From: Pigmentibacter sp. JX0631
Lineage (GTDB): Bacteria; Bdellovibrionota_B; Oligoflexia; Silvanigrellales; Silvanigrellaceae
NCBI RefSeq assembly: GCF_029873255.1
Contig: NZ_CP123622.1
Coordinates: forward strand, 806,501-870,500
Reading direction: 5' to 3'
DNA: 64,000 nucleotides
Shown here: positions 28,726-43,960 of the stretch, piece by piece
Layout of the letters: each line of letters begins with the position of its first letter
How positions within the stretch are numbered: position 1 is the stretch's first letter
Program-made: the position numbers and the translations under genes
Notes under the pieces: model-generated
What the model was told of the DNA's origin: nothing
What the model saw: the letters and a program-made list of their open reading frames with translations, nothing else
Databases searched by the model: none

Positions 28726-29967
28726 TTATGTACTAATTGAAATTTGATTTTTTAAAGCTGCTTCCTTTAAATTAGAAGATAAATTTTTATATTTATAAGA
28801 AAAATAAAAACTTAATAGGAAAAATAAAAAAAGTAAATTAGTGCTATAGAACATTAAATTTTTTATTTCTTTTATATCATTCATAAATGAAATAAAAAGC
28901 CCAGAAAAAGGAACTGAAATTTGATTAATAGCAAGTAAACAGCCAGTTATCTTTCCTAGCATAGAAACTTCTACTAAAGTTTTTCTTAAAATTCTTGCAA
29001 ATAGAGAATTAACTAATGTAAATGCAATAATTAAACCATAAAAAATTACGAATGAGGAAAATCCAGTTGTAAAAACACAAATATATGACGATACAATTAT
29101 ACCAAATGCCCCAATTATGGAAAAATAAAATACTCTTTTTTCATCAATAAAATGGGAAGTAATTATCATTGATAGTGCACCAAAACTTCCAGCAACAATG
29201 TTTAACAGCCCAAATTCAGCATCGGATTTAAGATATAACAGTTTTACTAAGGGAGCTCCTGCTGCTTCAACAATACTGATAATAAAATTTATAAGACTTG
29301 CTTGCAATGCAAAGAAAAGTAGGATTGGAAATTTTTTAAAAACTAGTAATGTATTTTTAAAGCTAGTTAAGAATGATTCATGATTTTGTTTCTTTTTAAG
29401 TTTATTAGGGTCATCCTGCCATTTTTGATTTAATGTATTCACTAAATTGTATAAGTAAAAAATAGGAACAATTAATAAAAAATATTTTATAGGTAAATAA
29501 GTAATTAAAAAAATTGCAAATGCAGGGCCCACTAACATAGAAACTTGATCACACATATTTAAATAAGATACTACTTTTGTATATCTTTTTAATTCAATAT
29601 TTTTCATAAGTAACACATCAGCCGCTATTGCTGTTTGTGACGTTCCTAATGAACTTATTGCACCTAAAATACCAATTACAACTGCTATACTATAATGAGT
29701 TGTGGATAAAATTATAAAAGCTATAAAGCAAGCAATAATTTTCAGTAAATCAATAGAAATCAAAGATTTTTTAGATCCAAATTTATCGGTTAAATATCCA
29801 CCAAAAGGGAGAAACAAAACGCGCGGCAACCATTCAATAAAATAGGCCAGCCCTGCTGCAGAAATATTATTTGTAGTGTTAAACACAATCAATGGCAAAG
29901 CAAATAACAAAATATGATCTGCTACAAAAACTAGAAATATACTAAAAATAAATTTAATTTCTTTCAA
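28726..29967 (-). CDS. MFS exporter near the YcaO locus
   Basis: 413 aa, twelve predicted helices. The MFS loop 2-3 motif is GGYLTDKFGSKK and the layout resembles drug/siderophore exporters. Start is TTG at 29967 with GAGG six nt upstream. It lies 351 bp downstream of, and on the same strand as, the 47-aa peptide gene, so it is a candidate exporter or immunity pump for a modified product; that link is inference from position only. Confidence 0.85.
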   Translation of the reverse strand: MKEIKFIFSIFLVFVADHILLFALPLIVFNTTNNISAAGLAYFIEWLPRVLFLPFGGYLTDKFGSKKSLISIDLLKIIACFIAFIILSTTHYSIAVVIGILGAISSLGTSQTAIAADVLLMKNIELKRYTKVVSYLNMCDQVSMLVGPAFAIFLITYLPIKYFLLIVPIFYLYNLVNTLNQKWQDDPNKLKKKQNHESFLTSFKNTLLVFKKFPILLFFALQASLINFIISIVEAAGAPLVKLLYLKSDAEFGLLNIVAGSFGALSMIITSHFIDEKRVFYFSIIGAFGIIVSSYICVFTTGFSSFVIFYGLIIAFTLVNSLFARILRKTLVEVSMLGKITGCLLAINQISVPFSGLFISFMNDIKEIKNLMFYSTNLLFLFFLLSFYFSYKYKNLSSNLKEAALKNQISIST

Positions 29968-30318
29968 CTTAAACCTCTCTTTTATGGTTTAATGTTACTT
30001 TATATTTTATTCCTGAAAAAAATGTTATCCTTAATTTTTTAAAATTTAAAAAAAAAGATATTAATTTAGAATTTTACTTTTTACTAAATAGAATTTATTT
30101 ATTTCATAAAATTATAGAATTATTTAAAAAATAATTTACTATCACTCAATTTATTTTTTAGAACCTATGAAATATATTTTAATATACTAATTAGAATATC
30201 ATATTTCAAAATTTTACATCTAATTTACAAAATAAAAAAATTGGAAAGAAAGTAAAACATTTAGTAATGAATTTTACTCTCCCTCCATATAAATTTAAAA
30301 GAAAAAAAAGTAATGAAT
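29968..30318. other. 351-bp intergenic AT-rich stretch
   Basis: No convincing ORF on either strand. Its right end holds a near copy (30262-30279) of the sequence at the 3' end of the peptide gene (30309-30325): AGTAATGAATTT(T)ACTCT. The MFS gene promoter probably lies at its left end. Confidence 0.4.
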
Positions 30319-30323
30319 TTACT
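30302..30323 (-). terminator. Hairpin plus T run after the peptide gene
   Basis: On the minus strand the stop codon is part of a small hairpin GTAA-ATTCA-TTAC followed directly by eight T residues and then CTTTT. It resembles a weak intrinsic terminator and could reduce read-through into the MFS gene. Confidence 0.4.
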
Positions 30324-30462
30324 CTTTATCTTCTGATGTAGTTTCTGAATTTGCTTCAGAACATATACCAAGTTCTTTTAATTTATCAAGTGTTTTAACT
30401 TTAACAAAAGTATCACCTTCTTCATTTACAGATTTATGCGGATTATATCTGATAATTCCCAT
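30319..30462 (-). CDS. 47-aa peptide, candidate RiPP precursor
   Basis: ATG 30462 is preceded by AGGAG at eight nt, so it is a real translation start; the frame extends further upstream without a start site. The product begins MGIIRYNPHK, has a central helix-prone LDKLKELG and ends with an acidic Ser/Thr/Glu tail after the only cysteine, Cys34 (GICSEANSETTSE). It is divergent to the PhyH-YcaO gene, 97 bp away. Small size, position and a Cys/Ser/Thr-containing C-terminal half suit a leader-core precursor, but no family match is recognised. It could instead be a small regulator. Confidence 0.6.
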   Translation of the reverse strand: MGIIRYNPHKSVNEEGDTFVKVKTLDKLKELGICSEANSETTSEDKE

Positions 30463-30490
30463 GTTAATTTCTCCTAAAAAAATTATTACA

Positions 30491-30524
30491 TTGGCTTCAA
30501 GAAAAGCCAAAATTATTGTATACT
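30491..30524. promoter_or_regulatory. Dyad and promoter between peptide and YcaO genes
   Basis: TTGGCTT (30491-30497) and AAGCCAA (30504-30510) are 7-bp perfect inverted arms. A good -10, TATACT (30519-30524), serves the rightward gene, with TTCAAG 17 bp upstream as a weak -35 that falls inside the dyad. A repressor bound here would block that promoter and sit between the divergent genes. Confidence 0.5.
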
Positions 30525-30559
30525 ATTTTTTCTAAGAATAAAAATAAAATGGAGTAAAA

Positions 30560-32572
30560 ATGTTTAAAGAAAATGGATTTTTAATTGAAGAAAATTTATT
30601 TTTTCAAAATAAATGTGATGAAATTGTTGAAAATATGAAAACTTATTTAAAAGAAAAATATAGCAATATGTCTGTCCTATTTCATGCAGATTTAATTGTT
30701 CCAGAAATTTCAGAAATGTTGCACGATCATAAATTAACAACTATAATTAATGAAGTAATGCAAAATACATCAATTCTAGTTTCTTCGGGATATTATGCAA
30801 AAGGCTCAGAGACTAGTACTCATTATGAATCAATAAGACTTTCTAGCTTACCCAGTAATAAACTTATTGGAGTTTGGATTGCCCTAGATGATATATTACC
30901 TACTAATGGCCCATTTTTTTATTTTCCAAAATCCCATATTAAAAATTATTTAATGTTGCATGAAAGAATAAATATTTACAATAAAGAAAAAGAAAGTGTA
31001 AATAATTTTATTGACTCTCAAATTGAAGAAGATATTTCTGATTTTAATCTGAAAGATAAAATTAGGAAAATATTTTTAGCGAAGAAAGGGGATGTATTTA
31101 TTTCTGATGGCAATTTATTGCATGGAGGTCATCAAATATTTAATTATAAATTGGAAAGACCTTCACTTGTTGGCTACTATTTGCCAAAAAACGAAAATAA
31201 ATATTTTTATCCAGATTACTTGGACACAAAAAAAGAACGAACTTCAGCTTCACCTAGAGAAGATATAACTCCATTTGCTATATTTAAAAACAAAAATAAA
31301 AATGAAGCTCAAACACTAACTCCTGAAAGAGTATTTTCAACCGAAAATGCTATTGAAAATGTTTACAATTTCCTCAAAAAAAATAATTTTAAATTAGAAC
31401 TCAATTCTGTTGGTAATGATATAGTCTCCTATGAATCAATTCTTTACCATGATAAATACAAAGTAATTGAAGGATATGGTAAAGGACTTACTCAAAAACA
31501 ATCTATGGCAAGTTCTTTATTTGAAGCTATAGAACATATTATTTGTCGGGGAGATTTAATGGATACTTCAAATACCATTAATGTCTCTATTGAGGATGCT
31601 TTAAAAAACTATAATTGTTTTCCACTTAACACTTTAGAGAAAAATATTAAAAATAAACAACCCATTCTTTGGGATATTTTTGATGGAATAAATACAAGTG
31701 AGAAATTGATTGTACCAAGTTTTATTGTAGATTCATCAGGCGGTAGTCGCTCAATGCAAAGTAATTACCCTTATCATGAATTAGAAGGAGCTTACTCAAA
31801 CTCAGGTACTGCAACAGGTTCAACTTTTGATGAAGCGCTTTTACATTCTCTTAACGAGTTAATTGAGCGCGATGCTCATTCTCTTCTACTACTTGAAACT
31901 TTTTGCAGAAAAGTTCCAAAAAATTTAAGAATTATAGATAAAAAAACGATACCTGAGCAACAACTAGATCTCTTGATGAGATGTGAAGATGAAATTGGTG
32001 CAGAAATAAAATTGCTAAACATAACAACAAATTTAAATATTCCATGTATATTATCTTTTTCTGAGAATATGGGGTTATTACAATACCCATTTATTGGATG
32101 CGGCTGCTCTCCAAGTGCAACTTATGCTTTAGAAAGATCTATATTAGAAACAGTGCAAACATATCATGCTTACATTAGAAACCCAGAAGAATATGTAAAT
32201 TATATAAAAAATTCTGAAAATCAATTTAAAGAATTTCCTAAACTAAAAGAATGCGTAAAAGAAAAATATCATGAAATTATTAAAAAAGGATATTTTACAA
32301 CATCAAATTTCAGAGAATTAAATGATTTATCCAAAAATTTATTTAATATTACTGAAAATATTAATGACTTTTCAGTTAATCATTTATTAAAAAATATTAT
32401 CCAAATATTAAGCAATAATAAAATGAATGTATATGTTAAAACACTTTTTCATAATGAAATTCATAATTTATTTTGTGTAAAGAGTATAGTTAGAGAACTT
32501 GAAATTTTTAATCTTGTTACTTCAGGTCTTTTTCCACTACCAGGAGTTAGAGGTGAGTTAGCACTAAATTAA
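30560..32572 (+). CDS. PhyH-type 2-oxoglutarate oxygenase fused to YcaO
   Basis: 670 aa. Residues 1-215 look like a phytanoyl-CoA-dioxygenase-type Fe(II)/2-oxoglutarate oxygenase: HYE (His88, Glu90), LLHGG (His188) and Arg200 fit the iron- and 2-oxoglutarate-binding positions, with Glu in place of the usual Asp. Residues about 255-670 are a YcaO domain with the ATP/Mg motif SLFEAIE (319-325), NELIERD (432-438) and ERSILETVQ. YcaO enzymes use ATP to cyclise or thioamidate peptide backbones. No E1-like/ocin-ThiF, dehydrogenase or TfuA partner is adjacent. The C-terminus, PLPGVRGEL, lacks the multi-proline tail of azoline synthetases. Start ATG after GGAG. Confidence 0.85.
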   Translation: MFKENGFLIEENLFFQNKCDEIVENMKTYLKEKYSNMSVLFHADLIVPEISEMLHDHKLTTIINEVMQNTSILVSSGYYAKGSETSTHYESIRLSSLPSNKLIGVWIALDDILPTNGPFFYFPKSHIKNYLMLHERINIYNKEKESVNNFIDSQIEEDISDFNLKDKIRKIFLAKKGDVFISDGNLLHGGHQIFNYKLERPSLVGYYLPKNENKYFYPDYLDTKKERTSASPREDITPFAIFKNKNKNEAQTLTPERVFSTENAIENVYNFLKKNNFKLELNSVGNDIVSYESILYHDKYKVIEGYGKGLTQKQSMASSLFEAIEHIICRGDLMDTSNTINVSIEDALKNYNCFPLNTLEKNIKNKQPILWDIFDGINTSEKLIVPSFIVDSSGGSRSMQSNYPYHELEGAYSNSGTATGSTFDEALLHSLNELIERDAHSLLLLETFCRKVPKNLRIIDKKTIPEQQLDLLMRCEDEIGAEIKLLNITTNLNIPCILSFSENMGLLQYPFIGCGCSPSATYALERSILETVQTYHAYIRNPEEYVNYIKNSENQFKEFPKLKECVKEKYHEIIKKGYFTTSNFRELNDLSKNLFNITENINDFSVNHLLKNIIQILSNNKMNVYVKTLFHNEIHNLFCVKSIVRELEIFNLVTSGLFPLPGVRGELALN

Positions 32573-43507: not shown

Positions 43508-43960
43508 ATGTCTTACAAAAGTATGAAGTTAATTAAAGTTGCTATTGCATGTACTATATTGCCATTATCTTTCGCAGCAAGTGCTTTTTCCATCAGAGGT
43601 TTAAATGATAAATGCCTCGATGTGCGCTTTTCAGGCACAGCTAATGGAACACCTGTTCAACTATGGGATTGTAATGGATCAGCAGCCCAAGAATGGTACT
43701 TCGATAGAGGCCGTGTTATAGGTATAGGTGGAAAATGTTTAGATGTTCAATATGGAATTCCATATAATGGAACACCAATTCATTTATGGGATTGTAATAA
43801 TACTCCTGCTCAAAATTGGGGTTTTATTAACAACTTTTTCCAAGGCCTTGGTGGCAGATGTCTCGATGTTCGCGGCGCAAATCCTGCTAATGGAACTCCA
43901 GTTCAAATTTGGGACTGTGTTGATCAGCCACAACAAAAATGGCGTTTAGTTACTAATTAA
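43508..43960 (+). CDS. Secreted ricin-type beta-trefoil lectin
   Basis: 150 aa. A signal peptide ends at SFAASA-FS. The mature protein is one R-type trefoil with three repeats, each KCLDV/RCLDV...NGTPVQLWDC...QxW: AAQEWYF, PAQNWGF and PQQKWRL. All three subdomains keep the Asp and QxW residues of sugar binding. It should be released and bind galactose-type glycans. No toxin or enzyme domain is attached. SD AAGGAG is strong, and the 285 bp upstream hold no other gene. Confidence 0.92.
   Translation: MSYKSMKLIKVAIACTILPLSFAASAFSIRGLNDKCLDVRFSGTANGTPVQLWDCNGSAAQEWYFDRGRVIGIGGKCLDVQYGIPYNGTPIHLWDCNNTPAQNWGFINNFFQGLGGRCLDVRGANPANGTPVQIWDCVDQPQQKWRLVTN

Follow-up and report, generated by a model that had tools for sequence, protein, structure and literature searches.

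What does an enzyme do that carries an oxygenase and a YcaO domain on one chain, and does the small peptide encoded beside it belong to the same system? This question is raised by a locus in the 64-kb window (the whole stretch of Pigmentibacter DNA analyzed here), where the gene for a 670-residue PhyH-YcaO fusion enzyme (30560..32572, plus strand) lies next to a divergent gene for a 47-residue peptide (30319..30462, minus strand). The initial annotation had proposed that the two make a new class of RiPP.

The domain architecture proposed there is borne out. The fusion matches both PF05721 (PhyH; 46.8 bits, E = 5.8e-12, residues 18-192; Pfam cut-off 22 bits) and PF02624 (YcaO; 115 bits, E = 5.9e-33, residues 307-647; cut-off 25.7 bits), and it is collinear over its full length with a paralog and that paralog's ortholog (44-45% identity), which score 38.7 and 39.8 bits against PF05721. 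The oxygenase domain occupies residues 1-215 (30560..31204, plus strand) and the YcaO domain residues 256-670 (31325..32569, plus strand); the linker between them (residues 216-255; 31205..31324, plus strand) is the least conserved part, with 30-33% per-domain identity between paralogs. Among solved structures the PhyH half matches PHYHD1, and the YcaO half matches MJ1094 best, along with LynD, TruD and MusD. A single-sequence AlphaFold2 model of the fusion reached a pLDDT of 31 and gave no usable structure.

The initial annotation had singled out His88, Glu90, His188 and Arg200. When the oxygenase domain is aligned with 17 PhyH-only relatives, these four positions read H/D/H/R in every one of the relatives. 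The window fusion reads H/E/H/R, and the replacement of Asp by Glu at position 90 is of a kind tolerated in some 2-oxoglutarate oxygenases. Judging by these residues, normal iron binding should be open to the window enzyme. The paralog and its ortholog read F/D/H/R, with Phe in place of the first iron-binding His, a ligand thought essential. A complete iron triad with the 2-oxoglutarate-binding Arg is thus present in one of the three fusions, the window copy only, and the idea that oxygenase chemistry defines the class has to be given up. Although the first His has been lost, the domain is still under purifying selection (omega between the fusion orthologs 0.22 for PhyH, 0.15 for YcaO and 0.18 overall), so the simplest inference is that in these two copies it has a binding or structural role.

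The YcaO domain retains its ATP/Mg-binding residues, which together with the PF02624 match place it in the YcaO superfamily, just as the PF05721 match places the N-terminal domain in the PhyH oxygenase family. The motifs SLFEAIE and NELIERD do hold invariant YcaO residues, as had been claimed: E322, E433, E436 and R437 are unchanged across an alignment of 19 YcaO sequences, as are K308 and E530, and all of these, together with E325 and Q533, are found in all three fusions. In a YcaO tree the domain falls outside the fused-cyclodehydratase group, a placement that is weakly supported.

The paralog came to light as a second YcaO match in the same genome: it is a fusion of the same architecture (L011:8604-10613), 45% identical to the window copy. 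Of seven congeners searched, one (G002) carries its ortholog, 80% identical to it (L012:8241-10250). A divergent peptide gene stands in the same layout beside all three fusions; because two of the three cassettes are orthologs, they amount to about two independent observations. In the window, the peptide MGIIRYNPHKSVNEEGDTFVKVKTLDKLKELGICSEANSETTSEDKE is preceded by a good ribosome site (AGGAG), and its start is separated from that of the fusion by a divergent intergenic region of 97 bp (30463..30559) holding both start regions. This region also contains a hairpin, TTGGCTTCAAGAAAAGCCAA (30491-30510; terminator-like scan, fold z = -2.2), which is not seen at the paralog loci; it could be an operator or fall within the 5' end of the peptide mRNA. 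The paralog and ortholog peptides, 44 residues each, have the form MG[RQ]NHLEEFRGLGLKN[DG]TETSFT[VI]ETIEKLKELGFE... and share with the window peptide a T-(I/L)-(E/D)-KLKELG block; all three begin Met-Gly. The peptide is therefore kept beside homologous fusions at three of three loci, and a conserved short precursor gene next to a modifying enzyme is the arrangement of a RiPP system. The two findings that the initial annotation had named as fatal to its proposal, an N-terminal domain other than PhyH and a peptide not conserved beside related fusions, were thus looked for, and both checks favored the proposal.

How specific is this association? A profile built from the two paralog-locus peptides alone ranked the window peptide, at its expected place, first among the 1115 ORFs of the 64-kb window (E = 0.004; next-best ORF, E = 0.99). 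A family-wide profile, searched against 14 family genomes, returned exactly three peptides, in the two genomes that hold the fusion, and nothing above background in the 12 fusion-less genomes (all other matches E >= 0.04). Because this second profile was built from all three peptides, their own E-values in it are not independent, and the evidence for conservation is the absence elsewhere together with the two-peptide profile. Scans of Pfam and NCBIfam found no described family that covers the peptide, and NCBIfam and RiPP precursor HMMs matched none of the three at any E-value up to 10; the family is narrow. Substitutions between the orthologs show that the peptide gene, like the fusion gene, is coding and constrained: the peptides differ by 12 synonymous and 7 nonsynonymous changes (Nei-Gojobori omega 0.10), and in the conserved block (alignment columns 19-36) the counts are 9 and 1.

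The initial annotation had also placed an MFS exporter in the unit. This gene (28726..29967, minus strand; PF07690, E = 1.4e-21) lies 351 bp beyond the peptide stop, and strong hairpins, a probable terminator (30240..30330, minus strand; -25.0 kcal/mol, z = -4.96), lie just past the peptide gene, so placed that the peptide transcript probably ends before the MFS gene. Equivalent hairpins follow both paralog-locus peptides (z = -5.0 and -5.7), there is no MFS or other exporter gene at either of those two cassettes, and the MFS ortholog in G002 (91% identity) stands without peptide or fusion. For these three reasons we leave the MFS gene out of the unit and reject it as a dedicated exporter.

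The cassette is gained or lost as a unit and has a patchy distribution in the genus (two of eight genomes). The paralog loci are flanked by ORFs that by eye look like nrdR, ribE, pth and rplY and by an unannotated 545-residue ORF, and the paralog cassette itself sits between the 545-residue ORF and pth. With no cassette between them, these two genes are separated by 47 bp in G006 and by 156 bp in G007. In G004 the same spot (L056:2572-3745) holds a different frame of 145 codons, by eye a lectin-like secreted protein, so the spot takes up varied cargo. The window encodes a small secreted protein (43508-43960, plus strand; 150 residues), by eye of the beta-trefoil (QxW repeat) lectin type. The G002 site that matches the window cassette (L054:2750-14430) is occupied by other DNA, about 11 kb long, in which incomplete copies of two gene ends, those of the MFS gene and of a 1190-residue gene, are signs of recombination.

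Beyond these cases the fusion was not found. About 940 sampled genomes from several phyla yielded PhyH-only and YcaO-only proteins and no other full-length fusion, the last of these whole-genome searches being run at E <= 1e-12. In plasmids the matches were to YcaO alone, and in phages there were none; genomic and viral contig collections gave no fusion, a weak negative because the automatic patterns used were poor. No YcaO was seen in the neighborhoods of PhyH-only relatives in another phylum, and defense-system models gave no meaningful match. Two other YcaO genes have short ORFs at their side. On a Streptomyces plasmid, a 53-residue Met-Gly peptide (L016:5629-5790, plus strand) lies upstream of a YcaO with a SagB-type dehydrogenase; we rejected it as a relative of the window peptide, there being no significant similarity. 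In G002, a 30-residue ORF, MGLGSCNSCVVIHKPNVKAPTSRTKNKVQK (L013:10068-10160, minus strand), lies upstream of a lone YcaO gene in the same orientation (L013:8742-10043, minus strand); it has a good ribosome site and a Met-Gly start and is another candidate precursor.

Can a YcaO enzyme act in such a setting? The initial annotation had stressed that no E1-like or TfuA partner is present, and none was found among the nearby window proteins scanned: neither the E1-like or Ocin-ThiF partner that marks TOMM/linear azole systems nor the TfuA-domain partner that marks thioamidated RiPPs. The general need for such a partner was overstated, however. In bottromycin, standalone YcaOs form the macroamidine and the thiazoline (PMC7136475; PMC5103208), and in streptamidine a standalone YcaO forms an amidine (PMC8442711), so that a missing partner does not stand in the way of the mechanism proposed below.

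Comparison with known systems leaves this one apart from each. Like the present cassette, bottromycin combines YcaOs without an E1 or TfuA partner (BtmE and BtmF) with a short Met-Gly precursor, whose N-terminal core and C-terminal follower resemble the C-terminal recognition part that we propose here. It has no oxygenase fusion, however, and its radical-SAM methyltransferases, amidohydrolase and P450 were not seen beside our cassette. We rejected homology of the peptide itself to the bottromycin precursor, since 1103-1304 of 2000 shuffles scored as high against a bottromycin reference sequence and there was no NCBIfam match (the bottromycin model is NF033414; PMC8442711). Streptamidine shares the standalone YcaO, the short precursor and an amidine chemistry that is possible without a Cys-rich core, but ami clusters encode a hydrolase, a dehydrogenase and ABC and iron transporters, occur in Actinobacteria and Firmicutes and lack a fusion (PMC8442711). 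In thioamitides a YcaO and a PhyH-family oxygenase work on the same RiPP, TsaJ (pfam05721) beta-hydroxylating a histidine of thiostreptamide S4 (PMC8153245); there, however, the oxygenase is a separate late-tailoring enzyme and TfuA is present, whereas here both domains lie on one polypeptide and no TfuA was seen nearby. The C-D fused cyclodehydratases LynD and TruD (E1-YcaO) are also fusion proteins with YcaO as their C-terminal domain, but their N-terminal domain is E1-like, where the window fusion has PhyH.

We favor the reading, at a rough probability of 0.6, that the cassette is a two-gene RiPP-type unit in which a precursor of 44-47 residues and a single fused modifying enzyme are encoded divergently; that it yields a YcaO-dependent RiPP is likely. 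The enzyme would recognize the T-(I/L)-(E/D)-KLKELG block of the peptide, and its YcaO domain, working without an E1 or TfuA partner, would use ATP to activate a backbone amide, which would then form a ring or an amidine with loss of water. In the window copy, with its full H-E-H/R set, the PhyH domain would hydroxylate the same peptide; in the other two, where the first His is missing, it would serve as a substrate-binding module. That the peptide is the substrate, what reaction it undergoes and where its core lies are all points that we infer.

On the last point we have a weak preference for an N-terminal core running from Gly2, with a follower for recognition on its C-terminal side. The suggestion comes from the Met-Gly start of all three peptides and from residues 1-16, which are nearly fixed between orthologs and unrelated between paralogs, a pattern that comes from two independent cases only. 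Since the N-terminal regions of the paralog-locus peptides have no Ser, Thr or Cys, azolines could not form there, and an amidine or other chemistry must be assumed. Against an N-terminal core stands the tail of the window peptide, CSEANSETTSEDKE, in which heterocyclizable residues abound past the conserved block (one Cys, three Ser, two Thr). Such a tail would fit the usual leader-core order: the conserved helix would be the end of the leader, and the tail a core that receives a thiazoline and oxazolines. A structure model of the peptide (mean pLDDT 68) suggests a helix at residues 25-31 (LDKLKEL), a weak hint only. The paralog-locus tails (EMDDDTESK and EIDDESESK), however, are very acidic, with two Ser/Thr only, and the tail is the least conserved part of the peptide between orthologs (3 nonsynonymous changes and 1 synonymous in 8 codons), whereas the N-terminal part is kept. 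We regard a C-terminal core as possible, if the less probable arrangement; as this is a question within the two-gene RiPP reading, its probability overlaps with the one given above.

It is unlikely, by our assessment, that the peptide acts instead as a small partner or a regulator of the enzyme, whose target would then be a cellular protein or a small molecule. YcaO proteins do act outside natural-product pathways, as in E. coli YcaO and the thioamidation of archaeal McrA, and MJ1094, the solved structure that the YcaO half matches best, would suit such a role. So would the peptide's own terminator-like hairpin and the lack of a protease or exporter common to the three loci, a lack that also counts against the RiPP reading. 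The unrelated N-terminal halves of the paralog peptides, on the other hand, look like differing products, and the patchiness of the cassette in the genus is unlike that of a housekeeping modification. That the peptide is a spurious ORF, paired with the enzyme by coincidence, would accord with the shortness of the match between the window and paralog peptides (E = 0.003-0.007 in locus searches), but is very improbable given the conserved position, the ribosome site, the downstream hairpin, the omega value and the exact co-occurrence with the fusion.

The two-gene RiPP reading can be taken further, to a new minimal class. Its PhyH domain would stand in for the usual E1/TfuA/RRE partner, and recognition of the peptide and activation of its backbone would fall to a single polypeptide. 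In one lineage, where the first His is lost and omega is 0.22, the oxygenase fold would have been kept as a binding module, and in the other as an active hydroxylase. We consider this a doubtful extension, put forward tentatively.

Full-text searches, whose coverage ended at subscription papers, found no description of a PhyH-YcaO fusion and just two papers that mention YcaO together with phytanoyl-CoA dioxygenase, and what is new here is the fusion architecture and the peptide family rather than the class of chemistry. If the peptide is the substrate, the cassette would be a compact two-gene YcaO system, with an oxygenase and backbone activation in one chain. It would then reveal how a YcaO domain operates when E1 and TfuA are missing, and whether the role of peptide-binding partner can fall to an oxygenase fold. 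With one paralog that has a complete iron site and one that does not, catalysis and binding are directly separable.
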